From: Axinella damicornis
Taxonomy: Eukaryota; Porifera; Demospongiae; Axinellida; Axinellidae
Assembly (NCBI GenBank): GCA_963931865.1
Contig: OZ007505.1
Coordinates: 12,476,868 to 12,540,867, forward strand
DNA length: 64,000 bases
Reading direction: 5' to 3'
The position numbers and the translations under genes were made by a program. The notes below the pieces were generated by a model. The model searched no databases and was not told the DNA's origin. It saw nothing but the letters and a program-made list of their open reading frames with translations. Below, piece by piece: positions 1 to 46,594 of the stretch. Each line of letters opens with the position of its first letter. Position 1 is the first letter of the stretch.

Positions 1-3000
1 AGATGCCCTCCAACAACTCCTTCATGTAATTCCCGCAGGATGTCCTTGCGTTGGGACTTGGGTACCACCAGCTGATACACACCAACAGAACCACTGTCAC
101 TTTCCCACCTGCGGAAGAGTATTCCATTTCGAATGACAAGCTGTTCCCAGAGCTGCAGCAACCTGCGGGTTTCCAAACTTTGTGCCTTCTGCACCTCTGG
201 ATCTGGCATTCTGTTGGCTTCCTTGGCTTGGAGTGCAATAAGGAGATCAGGATCTCCTTCTTGAAGCTCTCGCATCTCCGGCATGGCTTCTTGCTCGGAA
301 GGACTGTCTGAGTCTTCTCTTGATGCAGTGGAGATTTGGATTGCATTCGGTTCTTCCTCTCTTCCACACTGCTTGCATGGCAGTCTGGAAAGTGCATCCG
401 CATTTTGGTGGTTTTTCCCCTTGCGATGCAGAATGGAAAAATTGAACTCTTGAAGTTTCTCCAGCCATCTGGCTAGCTGGCCCTCCGGCTCTTTGAATGA
501 CTGAAGCCACGTAAGAGAACCATGGTCAGTACGCAGGACGAATTCTCGGTCCAACAGGTAGGGACGGAAGTGCCGTGTGAACACCACAACTGCCAGCAAC
601 TCTCTTCTGGTGACACAATACCTTCGCTCTGCCTTGCTCAGTGTCCTGCTTGCAAATGCAACAACCCGTTCCTGGCCATCCTCATCACGTTGGGCCAAAA
701 CTGCCCCAATGCCAAAATCACTGGCGTCCGTGTCCAAGATAAACGGTTTTGTGTAGTCGGGATAGGCGAGCACTGGTGTGGTGGTGAGTCTGCCTCTCAG
801 GTCCTCAAAAGCACGTTGGCATTCCACAGTCCACTTAAAGTGAGCGTTCCGCTCCATTAGCCTGTGTAGTGGCTTGGCCATCGCTGCAAAGTCCCGGATG
901 AATCTCCGATAGTAACCAGCAAACCCCAGGAACTTCTGTACCTCCTTGGTTGTGGTTGGTGTTGGTCACTGTGCAACTTTGCTGGTCTTCGCGGGGTCTG
1001 TAGCAATCCCTTCATGGGACACAATGTGTCCCAAATACAATACCTCTCGCCTGAAGAATGCGCATTTCTTGGGCTTCAGTTTGAGGCCAGCTTTCCGTAG
1101 CCGCTGGAAAACGCTCTCCAGGTTCCGGAGGTGCTCTGTAAAAGTGCGTCCAACCACGATGACATCGTCCAGGTATACCAGGCAACTGGACCACTGGAGG
1201 TTGGTCAGCACCAGGTCCATGAGCCTTTGAAAGGTTGCTGGTCCATTGCATAGACCAAACGGGAGCACATTGAATTCAAACAAACCGTCTGGCGTACAAA
1301 ATGCAGTTTTCTCCTTGTCTTCGTCTGCTACCTCCACCTGCCAGTATCCGCTCACCATGTCGAGGGTACTGAACCACTTGGCACCTGCTAATGTGTCCAA
1401 CGTATCATCGATGCGTGGAAGTGGGTATGCATCTCGCCTCGTGGCAGCATTCACTTTCCTGTAGTCAATGCAGAACCTCACGCTCCCGTCCTTCTTGGGG
1501 ACGAGAACAATGGGCGAAGCCCATGGACTGCAGGACGGCTGTATCACACCCTTAGCCAGCATATCTTGAAGCAAGTGCCTTGCCTCCTCCCGTTTGTGTG
1601 CAGGAATCCGCCTGACTGGTTGCCGAATTGGTGGGGAGTTCCCAGTGTTCACTCGGTGCTTCACCATGTCGGTACGTCCTGGGTTGTCATCATCCGCAAA
1701 CACGTCAGCATTAGCCAATAACAACAGAAAAAACTGCTGTTTCTGCTCCTGTGTTAGCTCTCCACCACATTCCTCCACCATTTTCCATAGCATCTCCCTC
1801 TTGGAGGCAGACACCTCAGCAGCCACCCCTGTTGTGGGCTCCACTGCAGCAATGGTTTGTGGAATCTCACCAGTTCTTTCCACCACGCCCACTTTGGTAC
1901 CCTTAAAAACAACAACAGATTCAGATTGCATATTCAATACACGCATTGGCACACATGAAGTGGCTGGGTTCACTAGTGCATTTGCTACACTCACCGGTAG
2001 ACAGCCTGAATTGTCCCCTTCCAGGAACCAGGTACCTCCACTCACAGGTTTGTCTACCCTTGCTGTCACCTCCATCTCACTAAACGCCGGAATCTGCACA
2101 GTTTCCTCTAGGGTCACTCTGGCTTGCACAATGACTGGCTCAGGGGAGGAGCCACGTAACGCCATAGATACTCCACGGTCGACAAACCGCAGTACCCGAC
2201 TCCCCGTCTCCAGTGTGCAGTTATTTGATTCGAGGAAATCGAGCCCAAGAATTGCCTCAGCGGTAAGTGCTGATGCCACCACAACTCTGTTGCAAAATCG
2301 CTCACCAGCAATCATGATCTCCACCATTGTCGAACCACACTGAATGTCTAGGGAGGCCCCCGCTACTCCCACCAATGGGCGTCCGTCCCATGGTTCCAAC
2401 GGCTTCTTGGCTGATGGCAGCTTGTCCCAAAGGTCCTTACGCAACAGGGTGATGGCTGCTCCCGTGTCCAGGATAAAGATGGTAGGGGTGCCATTGGTAT
2501 ACCCAGACACCTTGTATGAGCGGCTGACTGGGACCACGGCGATGGCATCTTGGCTTGTAGACGCTGATTTCCGCTTGGGACGACTGGCACAACCCCGGGC
2601 AAAGTGTCCCTCTTGCCCACACTTATGACAAACAATGGGGCTACTTCGGCTTGGCGTCTCTGGGTACCCTGCCTTCGGAGGCCCTTGTTTCTCAAGCTTG
2701 TCCAGCCTCTCCATCACGTTTTGCAGCATAGCTGTAATCGAGTCCTGTTTGCTCTGGACCGCTGCCATAATAGCCTCTGGTTCAACACTTACTTGTGCCA
2801 CTTGGCCCGGCTGAGGCAGGAGATATGACTCCATCTCCAAGGTTGAACCCACAGCGTCAACAAGGGATGCTGGCCGTTTCTGTTTCACATTGAATGCCAC
2901 TTGTGGATTGTCAAGCTGGCCCAGATACTGATTCAGTGCTAAACGTTCTCTCGCTTTATCTTCCAGTTCGGGGAAAGCTTTATCAGCCAACACCCGCAAC

Positions 3001-3380
3001 TCATCAGCGTACTCTGCCCAGCCTTCACCTGGGCGTCTCTTCCTGGCACTGAACTCACTGAGGTATAACTCCTTTCGACTGTCAGGTTCGAACCTCTCTT
3101 TCAAAGCTCGTTTGAGCGCAGCGTAACTCGCTTTCGCGGTGTCTGGCAGGCGTCCATAGGCTGTCTGGGCTCTTCCCACCAACCGTACTCTCATCCACAA
3201 CAGTTTGGCGTCCTCGTTCCACTCATTAATGGCCGCCACGGCCTCAAAGTGGTCTACCCAGTCCTGGAAAGAACCGGTTCCGGCAAATGGTTCTGGAGTA
3301 ATCAGGGGTCGGGATTTGGCGCCACTTAGTGTCGCTTCAGTAGGGCCGTCCCGGCTGGCGCCCTCTCCCGAACTCGTCAT
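1..3380 (-). CDS. Gag-Pol polyprotein of Ty3/gypsy element (partial, one in-frame TGA)
   Basis: Makes the capsid and replication enzymes of the retrotransposon. The ATG at 3380-3378 opens an 804-residue frame. A retrotransposon gag domain covers about residues 25-190, a CCHC zinc knuckle (CHKCGQEGHFARGC) residues 251-264, a pepsin-type protease with DTGA near 305, and a reverse transcriptase from about 600 with YLDD at 736-739. A TGA at 968-966 follows K-V-A-Q, where relatives carry tryptophan. The same frame then stays open to position 1 through the RT-RNase H connection (GFAGYYRRFIRDF) and an RNase H with D (DTDASDFG), E (TRRELLAV) and D (RTDHGSL). It ends at the first histidine of the integrase HHCC domain. 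There is no shift between gag and pol. The TGA is probably a point mutation (TGG to TGA), although readthrough cannot be excluded. Confidence 0.93.
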
Positions 3381-5961: not shown

Positions 5962-6808
5962 ATGCATGCACCCGGCCCGCGATCTCTTTGTCATAGCAAT
6001 ATTATCATAGAGCATGACAGAATGGCTACATACAGTGTACATGTGTATAATATGTACTGTACAGTCCCAATGAACTCGTACAAGATTAAGTTAAATTGAA
6101 TTATTATGCGCATAAAATTTAATGTTCCAGCTGAGTGCACAAGTGCATGCAGTCAGCACCCCAAGGCCCCAGGGGCCAGGCTTCTTGAGGACTCCTATCA
6201 GCTTCATTTTGGGGGTGGGTGTATTAGGATTTTCATCGAAATGGCAGGGACACTCAAGGATCGAGACTCAGAGCCGACACCTTCAGTTTCTCGTACTCCT
6301 CAACTGCACAGATGAGTTCCCGGTTGATGGAACCATGCTCCCGCTGTGTGTCCAGAACTTGTCTTTCTGGTACCACAGACTGTTATTAGTATCCTTCAGC
6401 TCTTTGGACAGCATGGAGTTCAGCTGATCGAGCTTGCTCATAGGATTCTACAAGAGCTCACTTCTGATCGTGGAGTTGCAGCTCCCTTATCCCATGCGCT
6501 GACTAGATAACTGTGTAGTCATTCAGTTTTAATATTTCTGCAGGTCACCACATGCATCTTGTAGCTCATGGCACTTGACTTCGAGCGCACTGACTTGTGT
6601 CTTCAGGGCATCTTCTGAGCTCTGTTGATGACATCATCCAGTACAGGCCTGAGAGCGGCAGATTTCAGTTTCATTTCTTGAAGGTTATTCGGGCGCATGT
6701 TGAATCAAGCACTTCATATTTTGCCATCTATCCCTTGATCTTCACCTGAAGGCCACAGTTGACTGTTTCTAGGCTGCAGTTGTATTCCATTGTCACAGCA
6801 CACACCTG

Positions 6809-6868
6809 TGTGTGTGTGTGTGTGTGCGCGCGTGTGCGTGCGTGTGTGTGTGTGTGCGTGTGCGTGTG
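6809..6868. repeat. GT/GC-rich microsatellite
   Basis: About 60 bp of TG repeat with CG substitutions (TGTGCGCGCGTGTGCGTG). No gene overlaps it. Confidence 0.9.
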
Positions 6869-10567: not shown

Positions 10568-13500
10568 ATGGACCCCAAGTATGATGAGATCTACGAGTTC
10601 CTCACCTTCCCACCGGTTTTTCTAAAAACCAGAAGAGAATCCTGAGAAAGAGCCAAGAACACTTTCGTGTGAAGCGGGGGCTGCTGTTTTACTCCAAGAG
10701 TCGAGCTGTTGATGGCAAGAGACGAGAATGGAGACAAGTCCCTCAGACTGCAGAAGAACAGGAGCGAATAGTTCTGGCCTGTCATTCGTCGGTTGAAGGT
10801 AAACAAAGATTTTGCTTTGCTAGAGCTTGCTGGAGTATATTAGCTACTATAGCTTGCTAGAGTATTAGCTATACTATAGCTTGCTAGAGTATTAGCTATA
10901 CTATAGCTTGCTAGAGTATTAGCTATACTATAGCTTGCTAGAGTATTAGCTATACTATAGCTTGCTAGAGTATTAGCTATACTATAGCTTGCTAGAGTAT
11001 TAGCTATACTATAGCTTGCTAGAGTATTAGCTATACTATAGCTTGCTAGAGTATTAGCTACTAGGCCTATAGCTAGCTAACTAGCTAAACGTGTCAATCA
11101 TCACCTTGTAGGTAGTCATCTGGGAAGAGATAAAACGTATCAGAAAATTGCACAGAGATATTACTGGAAGACGCTATGGACCGATGTGCAACAGCACGTT
11201 CAGGAGTGTGAAACTTGCCAAACAACCAACGATGCGAAATTCCAGAAGGAAGCAGCTCCACTGCATCCAATCCCTGTGAAATCCAAAGTGTGGAATCAGG
11301 TAATTGAAGCTCCTTGAACGAACACTTCAGTTTGAATATTGCTTATATCCACCAATACCTTTGTACTGATTTATACTGATTCTTTAATACCAGGTTGGAA
11401 TCAACCTTATTGGCCCATTGCCAAGGACAGACAGTGGCAACCGGTACATTGTCACTTTGGTCGACTTCTTTTCCAAATGGCCAGAAGCTGAGCCACTCCG
11501 AGACAAGACTGCGAAATCTGTATCACTCTTCTTGTACAAGATGATCTGCAGGTATGTGTCATTAGTCATGTGTCCTGCATAGTATACACTACCTATAAAC
11601 TACAGGCCTAGTATTATATGACGTTAGGTGGATGTGGGGGGCATCTGCAAATAATATGGTTGAACACTGGCCGACAAAGTTGTGTAGAGTGTCTGGTACC
11701 CTCTACTAGCCATGGTAGCCTCGTTCCCAGGCCCCGCCCAGCTTTTTGTCGCTTGAAGTTCTTTCGTGCAACCGAAAAGCGGCGTGCAGGCCTGCATGGG
11801 AACGAGGCTATAGCCATGGAGCGTTCGAACCTAGACGACTGGATGATGAACTGATCCAGGACTTGTTGAAATGACTAGCCCCCCCCCCCCCCCCCATGTC
11901 CACCTGACGTCACTCACATGTTGAATGATACCAGGCCTGAATTCCCTGTTTTCTTCACTCTTCCACATCTGTGCATTATTGTCATTGTGGTAGCGCATCT
12001 TGTAAAGCCCGATTTGAAGTATAGTGGAGTTTATTCTGGCTGAACAGTGTCATTTGATCATTAATTTCACATAACCCAAATGTATATATATACAGGTATG
12101 GTTGCACCAAGGTCATAATATCTGACCAAGGGAGGAGTTTGTTAACCAAGTCAGTCGCCATTTGTTCAAGATGACAAAGACCGAGCACAGGATCTCTGCT
12201 GCTTATCACCCTCAAACAAATTGGCTCGTCGAGAGATTCAACCAAACTGTGCAAAGATCACTAGTGAAACTTGTGAACAGCAACCAGACCAACTGGGATG
12301 AGAAACTGGATGGGGTTCTATTTGCTTATCGGACAGCACAACAGAAGTCGACACATGTATCTCCATTTGAACTGATGTACTGTCGGTAAGTGAACGTGGG
12401 TAATTAGCCTTGTACTCAGGCTCGGGGGGGGGGAGGCTAGTGGGTAATACAATCATTCACCAGTTGCCTTTCTGCGTGTATTGCATGGAGAAATTGCATT
12501 AGTTTTTGCTTGTTGAGCACTCCTCTCCATGCAATAACTCTACAGAAAAGCTGTTCTACCAATTGAAGCAGAGTTGGGCAACAGCTCTGACAGCTCTGAT
12601 GACGATGATGCCTGCATGGATCACTATGTCCAGAAGATGAATGAGCTCAGGGACAACCTCTTCAGGAAAGCCAAGAGTAACATCGATGATGCACAGCTGA
12701 GGCAGAAGCGTGACTATGACAAGAAACACGCCATCAGCAAGAGAAAGGTGATGACATGCATTAATCTTTCCTGGTCGGACATAGCTAGTATTTACTATAC
12801 ATGCATCCATGCAGGCTTCAGTATAATAATGACTGTTCTCTCACTCTTCAATTAAATGCAGGATCTAGAAGTGGGAGCATTAGTGCTGTTGCGCAACAGT
12901 GCCAGGGATAGCAGAAAGGGAGACAAGCTAAACAAAAGGTGGCTTGGGCCCTACAGAGTTGAAGAAGTCCTTGGAAAAGGGGTATATCTACTGGCCAATC
13001 AGGTCGTGTCCTCAAGAAGGCAGTCAATGGATGCAGGTATGCAGTGTGCTAAAATACGATTTCACATTGTACAAACGAGTGCTTCTTTGCTAGAGCAGTG
13101 TCATTCAACTCAGAACTCAGGCATCCTAAGCTTATGCAGTCAACCAGTCTGGGACAAGGACTTGACTTATACAGCATCGATATCCAGATACTAGCGCCCT
13201 GTCTACATGCATGCACTGGTGACACTAATACATTCTGCAGATATCTGCTATAACTATAGCTAGTGCCCCTTTTAAAATACGTAACTTATTGTGTGTTCCC
13301 AGCCCAAGTGTGTATATATAGTATACCTTGACTCTATAGGTTGAAACGCTTCTTCAAGAGGTCTGCCCCACGTGCTGTAAAGCCTCCACTGCTGGATGAC
13401 AATGACATCTTTCAGTTGCACTCTCCTGAAGCCAGCTTCAAATCAAGGGAGTCGATTCCTCCAATCTCACCCTTGGGGCGGAACTCTCGTGTCCCAGTCA

Positions 13501-13700
13501 TGAAGAAGTGGAGAATCAGTGATTTTGTTCTCCATCCACCACCACCCCACGAATCGACATCACAGGACTCAACAGCTCCCAGCCTGGAGGATGAATCCAT
13601 TCCACCTCTTACACCCCCAATGCCACCGCTTGACAAGCTTCTGAAGTCTCATGCTCAAGTTGTCCATTCAATGCCACAACAATTCACAAACCCAAGATGA
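10568..13700 (+). CDS. Ginger transposase, integrase part (exons 1-7 start), frame-broken
   Basis: A gypsy-like DDE integrase that would cut and join the transposon ends. Exons read from splice sites are 10568-10798, 11112-11299, 11394-11551, 12096-12385, 12546-12747, 12862-13036 and 13340 onward, all with GT-AG borders. Exons 1-2 carry the HHCC zinc domain (CHSS..GSHLG..CETCQ). Exon 3 holds the first Asp (VTLVDFFSKWPEA), exon 4 the second (IISDQG) and the Glu (LVERFNQT). Exon 6 has a GPY/F-like module (KRWLGPYRVEEVLG). One-base breaks are needed near 10620, 12135, 13003 and 13690. HPQTN is followed by Trp where relatives have Gly. Exact exon joins suggest a gene that worked until recently. 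The breaks may be mutations or sequencing errors. Confidence 0.85.
10823..11062. repeat. 27-bp minisatellite in transposase intron 1
   Basis: Roughly eight copies of a 27-bp unit (AGAGTATTAGCTATACTA followed by TAGCTTGCT) fill most of the 313-bp intron. Copies are nearly identical, so they arose after or shortly before insertion. Confidence 0.95.
11716..11810. repeat. 95-bp foldback MITE in transposase intron 3, 9-bp TSD
   Basis: The ends TAGCCTCGTTCCCAGGCC and GGGAACGAGGCTA form a hairpin. TAGCCATGG stands directly on both sides (11707-11715 and 11811-11819), a perfect 9-bp target duplication. It lies between exon 3 and exon 4 of the Ginger gene, so it jumped into an existing transposon. 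Confidence 0.9.
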
Positions 13701-13821
13701 TCCAACCTTTTTTCCAGACGAAATTGCCTTGTCACCCATCAAGCCGGCCCTGCAGTCACATTCCGAAGCAGCTACAGCTAGCAAGCTTCCTCAAGCCAAG
13801 CCAGCCCCGCAGCCTAACCCC

Positions 13822-13852
<31 letters not shown>

Positions 13853-15586
13853 ACACACATGCAGCTAGCAAGATTTCACATGCCAAGCCAGCCCTGCAAA
13901 CCAAACCCCCCACAGCTAGCAAGCTTCCTCAAGCCAAGCCAGCCCCGCAGCCTAACCCCCCCACACATGCAGCTAGCAAGATTCCACATGCCAAGCCAGC
14001 CCTGCAAACCAAACCCCCCACAGCTAGCAAGCTTCCTCAAGCCAAGCCAGCCCCGCAGCCTAACCCCCCCACACATGCAGCTAGCAAGATTCCACATGCC
14101 GAGCCAGCCCTGCAGACCAAACCCCCCACAGCTAGCAAGCTTCCACAAGCCAAGCCAGCCGTGCGTCCTAACCCCCCCCCCCCCCCCCCCCCCTCCCACA
14201 CACACACACACACATGCAGCTAGCAAGATTCCACATGCCAAGCCAGCCCTGCAAACCAAACCCCCCACAGCTAGCAAGCTTCCTCAAGCCAAGCCAGCCC
14301 CGCAGCCTAACCCCCCCACACATGCAGCTAGCAAGATTCCACATGCCAAGCCAGCCCTGCAAACCAAACCCCCCACAGCTAGCAAGCTTCCTCAAGCCAA
14401 GCCAGCCCCGCAGCCTAACCCCCCCACACATGCAGCTAGCAAGATTCCACATGCCGAGCCAGCCCTGCAGACCAAACCCCCCACAGCTAGCAAGCTTCCA
14501 CAAGCCAAGCCAGCCGTGCGTCCTAACCCCCCCCCCCCCCCCCCCCTCCTCCCACACACACACACACATGCAGCTAGCAAGATTCCACATGCCAAGCCAG
14601 CCCTGCAGACCAAACCCCCCACAGCTAGCAAGCTTCCACAAGCCATGCCAGCCCCGCGTCCTAACCCCCCCACACATGCAGCTAGCAAGATTCCACATGC
14701 CGAGCCAGCCCTGCAGACCAAACCCCCCACAGCTAGCAAGGCTCCGCAAGCTCCCAACCCCCCCCCCCCCACAGCTAGCAAGATTCCAAAAGCCAAGGCT
14801 GCAGCCCTGCAGTTGAAGCAGCACATAACCGACAATGACAAAAAACGCCTGCTCTCTGATGCCTGGCTCACAGATACCGACATTAATGCAGCACACAAGT
14901 TGTTGGCAAAACAATTTCCAGCACAACACGGACTGCAGAATACACTTATTCTGGATAAATTCGATTGCTACGCTTCATCAAGCGAGGACTTCGTGCAAGT
15001 GATCAACGTTTGTGGAAACCACTGGGTCTGTGCTTCAAACCGTCTCTCTCCACCAGGCATGATTTATGTCTATGACAGCCTACCTGTATGTAGTATGAAT
15101 TCCCACAGTCTACACAGGCAGATAGCAACGATCATGAAGAGCAAAGATGCCTTTTTTGTAGTGAAACACGTTGCTGTTCAGCACCAGATTGGACGAAGTG
15201 ATTGCGGGGTATTTGCAATAGCATTTGCAACATCCTTGTGTATGGGGATCGACCCACATACACTCAAGTACGAACAGACTCAGATGAGACCCCATCTCCT
15301 AAGGTGCATCGAGAGCGGCCATCTCTTGCCTTTTCACACTCCTGGGCAGATGAGACGAGTAGGAAGGGCATATTTCCTCAACACAAAAGAAGTGCCTGTA
15401 TTTTGCGTATGCCGACTACCATGGAGCAAAGACAACACAGCACACATCGCTAGGGGGGCACTAGTACAATGCTCTTTGTGCAAGGAGTGGTACCATCAAT
15501 CCTGTTGCAATATAGCTGATGTAGTCATTGACACCCCGAGGTACAAGTATCTTTGTAGCATCTGTACTGATAAAGTTGCACAATGA
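13651..15586 (+). CDS. Ginger transposase, C-terminal part: repeat linker, Ulp1 protease, PHD finger
   Basis: This is the large last exon of the same gene. First comes a 36-residue repeat linker rich in Ala, Lys and Pro (13800-14790). A Ulp1/SENP-type cysteine protease follows, with His in NHWVCASN (about 15017), Asp in YVYDSLP (about 15070) and the Gln-Cys pair in QIGRSDCGVFAIAFA (about 15187-15215). So the full His-Asp-Gln-Cys catalytic set is present. The end is a PHD finger (CVC..CSLCKEWYHQSCC..CSIC), a histone-tail reader. The frame shifts once in the second poly-C run near 14180. Ulp1 and PHD modules are known partners of Ginger integrases; their exact use in transposition is not established. 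Confidence 0.88.
13800..14790 (+). repeat. Coding tandem repeat (108 bp, 36 codons) with poly-C tracts
   Basis: The unit encodes ASKIPHAKPALQTKPP then TASKLPQAKPAPQPN. Units are 108 bp apart (for example 13913 to 14021). Blocks of three units repeat at about 355 bp, each block preceded by a C run of 16-20 and a short CA run. The mirror-image frames on the minus strand (Leu-Ala-Ser-Cys-Gly-Gly type) are shadows. Confidence 0.93.
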
Positions 15587-17070: not shown

Positions 17071-18824
17071 GTCAGTAATTATGATTCACATTGTAACAAT
17101 GGACCTAATGGAATCTGTTGCTATGACAATGACAACCCATTGGCCACCATGCAGATGTATAACCTGCATCCCAGACTCTTGCGGTAATAGATATTTTATA
17201 TGGAAACTTGTTATCACTATACGAAAACAACTTTCTGGCTCATTCTCACAATGACTGGTACTTTGTTTGGAAGCCTAGCAACAGAATCATCGACTTCAGC
17301 AATACTAATTCAGGCAATACTTATACATACCGGTCTCATAGCTAATATAGTTACACATAGGCAAGGTATACAAGTTACACATGGCTACCTACATGAAGTC
17401 CATTGAGATACCAATGAAATTTCTATAATCAAGGCACTCTGTGTATGCTGCACCACACACAAATGTACAGAGAATGTTTTACGTATGCCTTCCGTTGAGT
17501 GTCGGAAAGACCCATGCTATCAGCCTATCAGTAAACATGGATGTGAACTTGAGTGATGGTAGTCATTAGCCTCGTTCCCAGGCCGTCTGCCAGTCGCACG
17601 CATTGCATACGTGACCTTTGAACCCTTGTCAGATAGCTGGGGCTAGGTAGTCATCACTGATACAACTACCAGCTGATTGGAATGTAATTATTGAGCTGTT
17701 CACTCTGTCTGTACACAGATAAATGACCAGGCACTGAGCAACTTCCTTTGCTATGGGAACTATGAGCTGAAAAAAAATTGGAGGTAAGTACAGTGTGTGT
17801 GTGTGTGTGTGTGTTGGGGGGGGGGCAAACAACACTTCTCAAAATTAATGTCCAGTAAGGTTTAGTATTCATACCTGAAAGTTTGTATGTATCGTCAGGA
17901 GCACCGTTATGGCTCCTGGTATGGTCTCCCACTAATACCCAATTTATATTGATTGTTGACTGCGTGGAGACGAAGGGAAGGACTGGGTAGTTCCGATGTG
18001 TCTACGTCTTCAGGGGGAAATGCAAACAACTATGACAGGCTTATAACTTTGTTCTCTAAGCTGCAAGCTTACTTGCAAGTTACTAAACTAACAATGACTC
18101 TACTGTGTGTATTATATGATACTGAGCACATGTAGTTGGGATAGTAGCGGGAGACTACGGTTGACCGTAGGCCCTGCACCCTGTGGCTTTGTTATACCGT
18201 TCATAAATACAGCTAAAGCTTTTACATTGCCATTATTAGCTCTGATTGATATTCATGGCCAGATCACTCAGATCACCAGTGATGATATGTGATGGGTTAA
18301 GGAGGGATGTTGGATGTGCATGTAAGTTACTATGTACTCTAGCGTTACTGTAGTTAAGTAGTAAGGTTGGAGGTATGTACTGTAGCGAGGAAGCCACACC
18401 CACTGCCATCTCTCACCGCTCTGTCACAACACCAAAAGATTGCTGTCTCTGCATGCATTCCTGTAGATGTAGTATCATGTCACACGCTGTTGCATGTATG
18501 CGGTATGCATCCTGCATACACACTTACAGTGCATGTACCTGTCTGATGAGGCCCACAATGCAGAAACCACCTAGTCGTGCATTATATACTCCTTTGGCAT
18601 ATTTTAGCTACTGCTACCTGCAGTACACACAGCCTCGTTCCCAGGCCCCATCCGATAATCGGAAATGTGCCTGGTTAGACCCTATGCACTTGTAGGGCTT
18701 CTCGTCAGTCCAAAAAGCGACCAAAAAAGCTTCAGAGGGCCCAGGGACGACTTTGAGGGCCGAACGAAAAAATTTGGTCAGATTTTGGCACGCATCCCCC
18801 ACTAAACGTACAAGCGGGGGTGTA

Positions 18825-26096: not shown

Positions 26097-26136
26097 TAGC
26101 CTCGTTCCCAGGCCGAGTGGTCTGGGAACGAGGCTA
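26097..26136. repeat. 40-bp minimal foldback MITE with 9-bp TSD
   Basis: TAGCCTCGTTCCCAGGCC and its complement GGGAACGAGGCTA are separated by only a few bases. Flanks CAATAATGT and CAATGATGT match at 8 of 9. Confidence 0.88.
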
Positions 26137-26669: not shown

Positions 26670-26778
26670 CATTATATATTGGGGCCCTCTATTCTCTATT
26701 GGGGCCTCTATTCTGTGGAAACTCTCTGATCAGGACACACTTTTTCTGATCCTGGAATAGAGATAGAGGGGTTCCACC

Positions 26779-26815
26779 TAGCCTCGTTCCCAGGCCACAC
26801 CTGGGAACGAGGTTA
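26779..26815. repeat. 37-bp minimal foldback MITE with 9-bp TSD
   Basis: TAGCCTCGTTCCCAGG and CCTGGGAACGAGGTTA are joined by CCACA. Flanks GGTTCCACC (26770-26778) and CGTTCCACC (26816-26824) match at 8 of 9. One of the smallest plausible mobile units in the window. Confidence 0.88.
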
Positions 26816-27504
26816 CGTTCCACCATATAGAACTATAGTCTCGTTCCCAGACCCTCCCCGAAATGTGGAAAGAGGGTCTGTTGTTCTGAGCGATATTTCT
26901 TGGAGCATGGGGTGTGGTCACTCTGGGATTTTAAACCTCGAATCAGATGGCAGAACGCAAATGACGTAGTCAATCAGCGTAAGTCATAGGTGCGGTACAT
27001 GTAACAGTACATGTAACAGTGCAGTGTAGCTAGTACGGACGGTATGTCAGTGAAATGGATACGACAGGCCTACCGAAGAGCAAGCTGAGGCAGTAAGCCA
27101 AATCGATTATCTTGCCGACTGGTGTGACTGTGTTTCGTGACCCTTCCACTCATCTTTGACAACCTCAGAAAGAATTCTGTACAAGCGCAGGGCAACTGTA
27201 CGTTGTTGTTAGCCCTTTGGTGTCCCTCGTGAAGGACCAAATGCGTTGCTACAGTAAGCTTATAAGAAGAGTGTTAGGTGCGCTTTCATTGGAGAGGTGT
27301 TGTTTCTGTCGGTTGACTGGCGCAAAGCGCAGGGAATTAGACAGAAACGTAGCTCTCATATTAGTGAGGCATCCCCATGAGGTTGGTACGCATGCGTGGA
27401 TGGAGTATATAAGGGCGTGAGCAGAAAGAGTAAAGCAGTTTTTTAGCTCTCCTGTTTGGCAGGCAAGGAATATACTTTTTTAGCTCTCAATTGTTGTTTG
27501 TAAT

Positions 27505-29127: not shown

Positions 29128-29168
29128 TAGCCTCATTCCCAGGCTGGTGAAGCATGGGAATGAGGCTA
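29128..29168. repeat. 41-bp minimal foldback MITE with probable 9-bp TSD
   Basis: TAGCCTCATTCCCAGG and complement, nine-base loop. Flanks GTCCATGAT and CACCATGAT agree at 7 of 9. Confidence 0.8.
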
Positions 29169-39493: not shown

Positions 39494-41870
39494 AGTGTAT
39501 GCCTATGCGGCCACTGCATGGGTGACCTGCTCAACGAGCTCTTTAAGCAGGAGGTGGCACAAGAGGGAGACAGGCTGTCACTGGGTTTGTCTACACACAT
39601 GATGAAATTCTTCTCCATGCCTGGGCCCTTCATTGGTATGTCAGTGTGTGTGGGTGGGGGGGGGGGGGGGGGGGGGGGGGGACAGACCATCGGGCCACTG
39701 GGCATATCCACACACACATGATGAGGACGGCCTTTAAGTTCCCAAGGTGCTCTTTTGGACCAACTTGGCTGCTCTCTGGCAGGACTACTCCATTTCAGCC
39801 TAGCCTTGTTCCCAGACCCCTTCCAGCTTTCCATCGCTTGCAGTACTGCAAGCGATGGAAAGCTGGGGACGAGGCTACCAATCCATAGCTGCTGTCCTAT
39901 TGTGGTGGGACAAGATGATTCTGTAACTGTGCCCAGCTTTCACCACCATCTCCTATGTACTACAGTGGTGAAAGTTTGGAAGAGGTTCCTCTGTGTGAGA
40001 TTATATGATGTTTCCCTAACATAGAGCCGACTACCTTGAGAAGCATTCTGAACCGATTAAGTTGGAACTGAAGAAGAGTGTCTTCAATGAAAAGGCGAAG
40101 GCCATGGCGCAAGAGATCGAGTCCAGAGAGGGAAGGAAGGTGGAGCTCATCAAAAGGAAGATCCTGAAGCCTTCACCGCAAGGTATCAATGTTTCTTTGC
40201 AGTAACAGTACCCACCCACCGACTCTTGGCTACAATCTATAGCCTTGTTCCCACACCCCACGCGGCCTGGAATCGGGGCTATAGCTGACTACTGCCACAT
40301 ACATGTATAATCACACTAAGTATGTCATTTGGGCATGTTCAGCAACTGGACTGCATTTCTCTTCGCTGTTTCCATGAGCCTCCATCTGTGCTGCATTACT
40401 AGAATCAGATAATGCGGTAAATTCATGGGTAATAGCTTTGCTTGAGATGTAGTCAACTGAGCATGCATACATACATGTAGCTCTCTGAAGTTGGCATCAT
40501 AGCCAGAGCTTGAACATCTTGTATCACTCTCTCTCAAGGGAAGTTTCAGGTGGCCAAGGGAGGTTCTCAAGTGGGGTTCTTCAAAAGGCCGAGGACACCA
40601 TTCATCACCTGGTGCAAGTTCCTCGCGAAGGAGGGGAGCTGGATTTACAAGTCCCGTGCGAGGGAGGGGAACTGGATTTGCAAGCCCTTTGCGACGGACA
40701 GGGGCTGGTTTTGTGCGTGGTCGTAGTATAGGAAAGGGCCTAGGACAGCTGCAACCTTAAGGAAGTAATTTCTCTCAGCGTCCACCTGATGTCCCCAACC
40801 AGAGCAGAGGGTTTACGAGGGGTAGAGGGACCGACGAAAGAAGTGCTAGGGGGAGGGGAGGACGAGGAAGTGGGTATTTCAATCCAGACACTACTGCTAA
40901 ATCGTCGGAAGGCTTCACAAATTAATCTCCTGGCCAGAAATGGAGCCAGAGTCAGACACAAATGGATATTTCTGCAGTTGTACGGAGGAGGTATGGCCCT
41001 GGCCCTGGTACCCAGCAGGCCCCAACAGTGGCACCACCCCTCCAGGCACAGCAAACACTTCCCCACTGGATTAATGTTTAGTCACCGCAAGTACCTCCTA
41101 ACTGGATCCAGCAACAGCAGGCACCACCATCGTGGCCCCAGTAACTGCCAGCACAATCGCCTGTGGTTCAGCAGCTGCAGCAAGCACCACCACCATCTTG
41201 GCCCCAACCCGCACAAGTGCCTTTTGTTCCGCAGCAGCAAACTCCCCCATCATGTTGGCCCCAACCACAGCCATCATTGTGACCCCAAACGCAACTGGTA
41301 CAACTGCAGCAACAGCAAGCACTGCCATACTTGCTGTATTTGAATCAGGGCAATGAAGACGCTCAGCTGGAGGTCCTGCTGAAGTCCATCCATGAACAGG
41401 GGGCCAGCCAGGCTGTAGTACAGCAAGTGGTAGGGGATGCTACTATGTTACTAGTTTCGGTACCAGACCCTCGCACGCAGAGCGAGGGTCTGGTACTGAG
41501 ACTACTCTGTTGCCAGTTCATTGTAAAGGCACGGAGTTGTGTGGGCACACTCTTGAGTGACGATTAGACTCGTGCTGTTATCTCTTTCTCAGGCCAAGAT
41601 CAACAGTGAAGAAGATGCTGATGCTACCCTGAAACTCTCAAGTGCTCTCACACAGGCGCTGCTGGCATACCATCTCCACTGTAAGGCTACTACCAGCCAG
41701 TATTGTTAATACAAAATAATTTCATGTTATGATTGTGTGTGTGGTCATCCTCAGTATTCTGTCCCATTCCATTTTGCACAGAGCATCCCAGAAAACCCAC
41801 TGGCTGCAGTGATTGGCAGCTTGCAGGGCCTCAGCCATGCAGTTAGACTTGCAGAATCCTACGTCTTCTA
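39494..41870 (+). CDS. Unrecognised spliced gene with charged helix, RGG/FG-like and Gln/Pro-rich parts
   Basis: Exons with matching phases are 39494-39635 (SVCLCGHCMGDLLNELFKQE ... MKFFSMPGPFI), 40027-40182 (ADYLEKHSEPIKLELKK ..., charged helix) and about 40552-40735 (GKFQVAKGGSQVGFFKR). A shift near 40580 gives RRRGAGF / RGRGTGF / RRTGAGF repeats. About 40769-41430 carries RGRGGRGSGYFNP and a Gln/Pro-rich stretch with in-frame stops needing shifts. About 41594-41682 (AKINSEEDADATLKLSSAL) and 41782-41870 (SIPENPLAAVIGSLQGL, ends TAG) complete it. It has the look of an RNA-associated protein, but the family is not recognised. Possible earlier exons: 37673-37735 and 37984-38090 (Cys-rich). Confidence 0.5.
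39655..39681. repeat. G homopolymer (about 26 bp)
   Basis: A G run in the intron after the exon ending at 39635. Confidence 0.95.
39801..39876. repeat. 76-bp foldback MITE, TAGCCTTG end
   Basis: TAGCCTTGTTCCCAGACC, then AGCTTTCCATCGCTTGCAGT and the complement give an almost perfect stem. Flanks do not match. Intronic in the unrecognised gene. Confidence 0.85.
40240..40281. repeat. 42-bp hairpin, TAGCCTTGTTCCCA end
   Basis: TAGCCTTGTTCCCA ... TGGAATCGGGGCTA with partial pairing. A decayed minimal member of the same family, again intronic. Confidence 0.6.
41452..41504. repeat. 53-bp foldback MITE, TAGTTTCGGTACCAGACC end, probable 9-bp TSD
   Basis: TAGTTTCGGTACCAGACCCT pairs with AGGGTCTGGTACTGAGACTA. 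Flanks CTATGTTAC and CTCTGTTGC agree at 7 of 9. It lies just after the donor of the exon ending near 41430. Confidence 0.82.
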
Positions 41871-46537: not shown

Positions 46538-46594
46538 GAGTCTCACGGGCCAGATGTTTGCAGCACGTGTGGGGCCATCTGGCCCGGGAGACTA
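46538..46594. repeat. 57-bp foldback MITE, GAGTCTCACGGGCCAGATG end, 9-bp TSD
   Basis: GAGTCTCACGGGCCAGATG pairs with CATCTGGCCCGGGAGACTA. Flanks CCTCCACTC (46529-46537) and CTTCCACTC (46595-46603) match at 8 of 9. Confidence 0.86.

Follow-up and report, generated by a model that had tools for sequence, protein, structure and literature searches.

How small can a DNA transposon become and still be mobile? The question is raised by a 64-kb stretch (hereafter the window) within a 22.6-Mb contig of the sponge Axinella damicornis, for which the original prediction had described seven hairpins of 37-57 bp, those of 37-41 bp being little more than two ends, as Mutator-like elements bordered by 9-bp duplications. 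All seven are present and start where predicted (Table 1), and their flanking 9-mers match at 7-9 positions as claimed (9, 8, 8, 7, 7, 8 and 8 for the elements starting at 11716, 26097, 26779, 29128, 41452, 45786 and 46538), one of them, at 11716, perfectly. The size range holds for five (40, 37, 41, 53 and 57 bp), those at 11716 and 45786 being 95 and 420 bp long, and the ends TAG(C/T)CTC...GAG(G/A)CTA are found in four of the seven, with departures at 26779 (GAGGTTA), 41452 (TAGTTTC) and 46538 (GAGTCTC).

Table 1. Hairpin-family elements and flanking duplications in the window; positions are those of the window, and fractions give matching positions between the two flanks.
Feature	Position	Strand	Remarks
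Left 9-bp target site duplication GGTTCCACC of the anchor element	26770..26778	.	8/9 against right copy
Anchor hairpin element, 37 bp	26779..26815	+	folds to -17.1 kcal/mol, z -8.8; ends GAGGTTA
Right 9-bp target site duplication CGTTCCACC of the anchor element	26816..26824	.	
Hairpin element, 40 bp, duplication CAATAATGT / CAATGATGT	26097..26136	+	8/9; fold z -9.0
Hairpin element, 41 bp, duplication GTCCATGAT / CACCATGAT	29128..29168	+	7/9; fold z -8.4
Hairpin element, 53 bp, diverged ends TAGTTTC...GAGACTA	41452..41504	+	flanks 7/9
Hairpin element, 57 bp, left end GAGTCTC	46538..46594	+	flanks 8/9
95-bp element, perfect duplication TAGCCATGG	11716..11810	+	flanks 9/9
79-bp element, degenerate right end, perfect duplication GGTAGTCAT	17567..17645	+	9/9; absent from the original prediction
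420-bp element, on visual comparison of one type with the 397-bp element of L014	45786..46205	+	flanks 8/9

The seven hairpins were positives only. A mechanical scan of the window (ends with at most 4 mismatches in 15, 24-700 bp apart, the element at 46538 falling outside these settings) gave 17 adjacent left-right end pairs, 6 of them with at least 7/9 flank matches and 11, lacking a duplication, with at most 3/9. The family ends are TAGYCTCGTTCCCAGR, and the end motif TAGYCTCGTTCCCAGG has 39 matches in the window with up to 3 mismatches, compared with 0.60 expected from shuffled sequence. In the genome, searched as a 226-Mb assembly of 120 contigs, exact 16-base ends occur 23,032 times, a figure that overstates the number of elements because it is inflated by tandem arrays. 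The strict hairpin pattern had no match in viral contigs or in bacterial and archaeal genome contigs. The window also carries other features. At 966-3380 (-) lies an 804-aa reading frame whose matches to reverse transcriptase and zinc-knuckle families exceed the family cut-offs, while those to gag and aspartyl protease families narrowly miss theirs, so that judged by its domain matches it is a Gypsy-like retroelement. A 629-aa frame at 13697-15586 (+) contains a PHD finger, and one relative of this protein (402 aa, 55 % identity over 54 % of the query) was found among 7,990 candidates scored.

The length of the duplication was determined on 52 non-redundant end pairs from the window and loci L001-L060. 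At k=9 the flank identity was 0.553 versus 0.253 when the right flanks were randomly reassigned (z 14.1), with 8 of the 52 pairs exact, and the z values for all other k from 3 to 14 ranged from -1.6 to 3.9, the next highest being k=10 with 3.9. By eye, L005 carries a perfect 10-bp duplication and L004 a perfect 8-bp one. The flanking 9-mers of the 52 pairs thus match far more often than in the shuffled control and no rival length appears, so that neither outcome named in the original prediction as refuting it has been obtained; the hairpins are real, and so are the 9-bp duplications beside them. The target duplication is of fixed length, as in non-autonomous DNA transposons of the MITE type, with k=9 dominant and 10 bp in the minority. 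Duplications made by Mutator-like elements (MULEs) measure 8-11 bp, mostly 9, and nine dominates here in the mixed pairs as well as in the copies of the 44-bp unit described below.

This unit, an 18-bp stem with an 8-base loop, was found at 72 genomic places when up to 2 mismatches were allowed (7 exact, 34 with one and 31 with two), and the backward-read pattern, used as a genome-wide control, at none. Five of the 72 places lie within two small arrays and three at one triplicated site. Flanks were read in 38 stretches, which comprise the 41 places with 0-1 mismatch and leave out the 31 with two; 36 stretches hold single copies and the other two the small arrays, of 2 and 3 units. For the 36 single copies the flank identity at k=9 was 0.833 versus 0.279 after shuffling, with 15 exact, and there was no clear excess at any other length from 4 to 14. 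One insertion site appears three times at 39-40 kb spacing with a common flank (L093-L095, C8:12.82-12.90 Mb), that is, as a segmental triplication. Counting it once, we obtained 34 independent sites: 21 have a 9-bp duplication with 0-1 mismatch, 2 have a 10-bp one and 11 are without a clean duplication, 7 of these showing 2 mismatches at k=9 and 4 showing 3 to 8. When the flanks of the 34 sites were deranged in 1,000 reassignments, 0.06 duplications were called per set, all of 7 bp and none of 9 or 10 bp. A weak target preference is visible in the 30 copies with at least 7 matches, where 60 half-site readings show A 28 times and G 4 times at position 4 of the duplication; in this sample the triplicated site is counted three times, and positions 4 and 6 mirror each other by construction. 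As to the arms of the hairpin, both changes fall within the stem in 11 of the 31 copies with two mismatches, and in none of the 11 do they stand at mirror positions (about 0.3 expected by chance), so that on this weak test there is no sign that one arm corrects the other.

Single-stranded DNA folds of five units of 44, 40, 37, 40 and 41 bases gave -24.2, -21.4, -17.1, -20.7 and -18.8 kcal/mol, with z between -8.2 and -9.5 and no shuffle as good. Like MITEs, these five units have terminal inverted repeats and no coding sequence, being near-complete hairpins too short to code, and, as in foldback elements, inverted repeats make up most of the element: the micro-units are almost all stem, and a 397-bp member of the family (L014) is so by roughly half. 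The inverted ends of this member are about 92 bp long; a first look gave 2,618 candidate relatives, and among the 40 of these that were scored most are full length, with 92-96 % identity. Members of 566 bp (L019) and 605 bp (L015) have the same ends, and we infer that the larger members (397, 566 and 605 bp) are likely the parents of the micro-units. An unrelated repeat of about 625 bp, with inverted ends of roughly 65 bp, was seen at 1979-2603 of L044; most of the 40 scored among its 190 first-look candidates match this part alone.

The larger members of the hairpin family permit another account of the small hairpins, namely that a larger hairpin was inserted with its 9-bp duplication and the centre of the palindrome was lost later in place, by replication slippage, so that the micro-hairpins would be relics. 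The abundance of full-length larger relatives fits this account, as do the one-off elements. Nothing else in the genome comes within 2 mismatches of the 37-bp anchor (at exactly 3 there are 10 places), and the anchor is therefore no proof by itself that a 37-bp unit moves; the 30-bp element of L001, with an 8/9 duplication, has one exact copy and six others within 2 mismatches; and for the 40-bp element of L009 there is no other copy in the genome within 1 mismatch. Because these elements stand alone or almost alone in the genome, many micro-units may have failed to spread further or may have arisen by deletion in place, and singletons such as the anchor may have moved at a larger size and have shrunk afterwards. 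The 44-bp unit argues against extending this to the whole family, since its 72 places share one loop sequence and the 34 independent sites read have different flanks, so that the same deletion would have been needed many times. The same deletion would also have had to recur in a 40-bp unit that surfaced as two-mismatch relatives of another query: its identical copies lie at four places at least, and at the four the flanks match at 9/9, 8/9 and 9/9, with different sequences, and in one case at 2/9. Dispersal in multiple copies, as expected of a MITE, is thus found for the 44-bp (72 places) and 40-bp (at least 4) units and not for the 37-bp anchor. In sum, units of 40-44 bp behave as transposable elements and can be mobile, and collapse in place is a possible but not the favoured explanation of the family, which may hold for the singletons alongside transposition of a MITE.

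Many copies stand in arrays of the form (element + one duplication)n, with 2, 3 and 21 units seen. In L107 a 49-bp element alternates with the 9-mer AGCCTGGAC, 21 exact ends being listed over 1.2 kb, and in L075 (C12) the 44-bp element alternates three times with ACCCCCCAC, which stands at both outer sides too. Two 44-bp units with a 10-base spacer make up L073, and in L131 two copies of a 35-bp element have CACATGTAC between them and on both outer sides. The elements of the L132 array measure 33 bp; L133 and L134 hold 3 and more than 2 units, respectively, and L128 is a more complex array. A genome-wide search for junctions, covering 8- and 9-base spacing with a palindromic pattern that reports each place on both strands, found a right end, nine bases and a left end at 83 places and the eight-base form at 12, 6 of them within a single array where nine-base junctions occur too; the backward control of the pattern gave none. 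The 50 junctions listed of the 83 fall into 13 groups with different 9-mers, which together with L075 makes at least 14 loci. With 83 junctions at 9-bp spacing, and with 42 of the first 100 end matches listed sitting in three arrays (6 + 21 + 15), one could suppose satellite-like tandem repeats that spread by recombination without any transposition. We consider this highly improbable: the groups of junctions carry different 9-mers, isolated copies have site-specific duplications, and neither a single ancestral 9-mer nor shared flanks accompany the dispersed copies.

The arrays show steps along which a single insertion could become a minisatellite. In L130 and L129 two neighbours have different interiors, and L129 is without an outer copy of the 9-mer; such unequal neighbours would fit two separate insertions at one site, a route proposed for other transposons (PMC9659126, PMC12628747), and diverged duplicates would fit as well. 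Some clusters are built otherwise. In L108 (C1:1376200-1376900) the 16-base left end and the 9-mer GCTAGCACG are repeated about 18 times with some changes (25-bp period) and are followed by one longer element, and L023 is a similar left-end array with an 11-base flank and a 27-bp period, likewise closing in one longer element. At C6:3215479-3215813, 8-mer junctions occur in opposite orientations (CTGCATGC / GCATGCAG) within one cluster.

Units that are too short to code would need a transposase from elsewhere, and the superfamily searches by domain covered MULE and Merlin. The MULE transposase domain was listed at 51 places in the genome. Thirty loci were read with 1.5-kb flanks, a few of them with more, and the other 21 places are without a read locus; seven of the 30 contain a hairpin-family end (up to 3 mismatches), and in none do such ends frame the gene. 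Three resident families make 9-bp duplications: a 967-aa family with ends GCGTTTTTTTTTTTTGG and duplications CCGGNNCGG in the three copies with both flanks read (L062, L066, L068), an 890-aa family with ends GGGCGTATGGAAAAG and the duplication CATTTCATC in one copy, and a 632-aa family with ACTATTTCACGGAACGG near its ends and, by eye, the duplication CTACCTAAC in one copy. For a 926-aa family copy comparison placed the inverted ends roughly, near 293-389 and 6722-6830 of the joined stretch; two 470-aa subfamilies showed one end and a 1285-aa family one similarity break. None of the ends or boundaries resolved in these families (967, 890, 632, 926, 470 and 1285 aa) matches the hairpin ends. No ends were found for the 852-, 738- and 964-aa families, and the 1003-aa and other families were viewed with 1.5-kb flanks at most.

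Two loci looked like the partner and were rejected. The first was a 5.5-kb stretch with a 967-aa MULE gene, seemingly framed by TAGCCTCGTACCC ends and a perfect 9-bp duplication; comparison of copies revealed its own ends, GCGTTTTTTTTTTTTGGAACC, with duplications CCGGNNCGG, and the L062 copy lies inside one hairpin. In the second, a 926-aa MULE gene ends 490 bases from a TAGTCTCGTCCCC end, and six further copies of this end region exist; the DNA beyond the end is common to 6/6 copies, so the hairpin is nested and the ends of the element itself are further out.

Consequently, among the MULE families with resolved ends we found no transposase gene bounded by hairpin-family ends. Of the original prediction, the 9-bp duplication, its consistency over many copies and the mobility of units as small as 40-44 bp are supported, and the Mutator-like identity is a plausible proposal. 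That no MULE with hairpin-family ends was found among the resolved families would suit a different superfamily of DNA transposons whose duplications also happen to be 9 bp long, and Merlin, with duplications of 8-9 bp, would be a candidate. However, a six-frame search of the genome for the Merlin transposase domain (IS1595-type, PF12762), a search that could miss intron-split genes, gave no match, and the dominance of 9 bp contrasts with the 7-8 bp of hAT and of the P element, the latter being kb-sized like hobo. We therefore regard another superfamily as unlikely. Since 9-bp duplications are a feature of three resident MULE families and the Merlin search was empty, assignment of the hairpins to the Mutator-like group is plausible, and the 9-bp duplications of the resident MULEs support, short of proof, the idea that the hairpins are moved by one of these MULEs or by a relative since lost.

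Taking as observed how long the duplications are, that identical units of 40 and 44 bp are dispersed, and that the units of an array share one duplication, we consider it probable that the hairpins are non-autonomous DNA transposons (MITEs) belonging to one very large family. Its members would have TAGYCTCGTTCCCAGR ends and 9-bp, sometimes 8- or 10-bp, duplications, would range in size between about 600 bp and, for the smallest hairpins, about 40 bp, and would be moved by a transposase acting in trans, most likely a Mutator-like one. In such a scheme this transposase would cut and paste the hairpins, internal deletion in larger relatives would produce new micro-units, some of which would then amplify, and repeated insertion into the 9-bp duplications, or unequal exchange between them, would build the tandem arrays. 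A more specific proposal concerns the substrate. A duplex of 40-44 bp, about four helical turns, is stiff, and pairing of its two ends by bending is hard to picture, while extrusion of a near-perfect palindrome would bring two entire copies of the end next to each other at the base of a cruciform. That the folded hairpin or cruciform, and not the linear duplex, is the substrate of transposition seems to us quite unlikely as matters stand. If true, it would explain the mobility of palindromic micro-units at sizes at which one would expect ordinary elements to fail, and would link them to the model of hairpin-based amplification described for the zebrafish Angel MITE (PMC12628747).

What is surprising in the micro-units is that identical copies of 40 and 44 bp are dispersed with clean duplications. 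With a length close to that of two bare ends, they would mark the natural lower size limit of DNA transposons in eukaryotes, and as minimal substrates that are ready to use they lend themselves to tests of end pairing by a transposase. Similar families elsewhere may be overlooked, as the MITE finder described in PMC6245586 keeps candidates of 50-800 bp only. We found no paper on the hairpin end motif in the open literature (subscription literature and repeat databases being outside the scope of the search), and judged by literature listings there was nothing relevant under the name of very small MITEs.

Among known systems the hairpins are an extremely small variant of MITEs, probably of Mutator type. 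They share with MITEs the absence of coding sequence, terminal inverted repeats, a target duplication and a high copy number, and the larger members (53-605 bp) fall inside the 50-800 bp given as the usual definition and software limit (PMC6245586), whereas the 40- and 44-bp units are multi-copy yet below its 50-bp floor. This floor is a convention of annotation and not of mechanism; our claim is therefore that the 40- and 44-bp units work like MITEs. Another close parallel is Tm1, a Mutator/Foldback family of root-knot nematodes with foldback-like ends, in which 45 of 53 complete elements are described with duplications of 8-10 bp, mostly 9 (PMC3169594). According to the same account, Tm1 has MITE-like and transposase-coding forms with common ends, one transposase-coding copy having been found; unlike the hairpins, it has composite ends with tandem repeats of 13-15 bp and sizes of about 900 bp and 2.6 kb, with a MITE-like class typically below 0.5 kb, compared with 40 bp here (PMC3169594). 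The Tetris and DAIBAM foldback elements of Drosophila virilis are similar in that they make 8-10 bp duplications, are non-autonomous with no autonomous partner found and give rise to tandem arrays, which consist of a 220-bp repeat inside the long ends (PMC4079207), whereas the unit of the hairpin arrays is the whole element with one duplication, or the 16-base left end with a 9- to 11-base flank. Finally, tandem transposons formed by double insertion at one target site have been described for the P element and hobo (McGurk and Barbash 2018, as reviewed in PMC9659126 and PMC12628747), and there, as in our arrays, the size of the junction equals that of the target duplication. Unlike those tandems, the arrays reported here consist of units of 33-59 bp, with junctions at no fewer than 14 separate loci.
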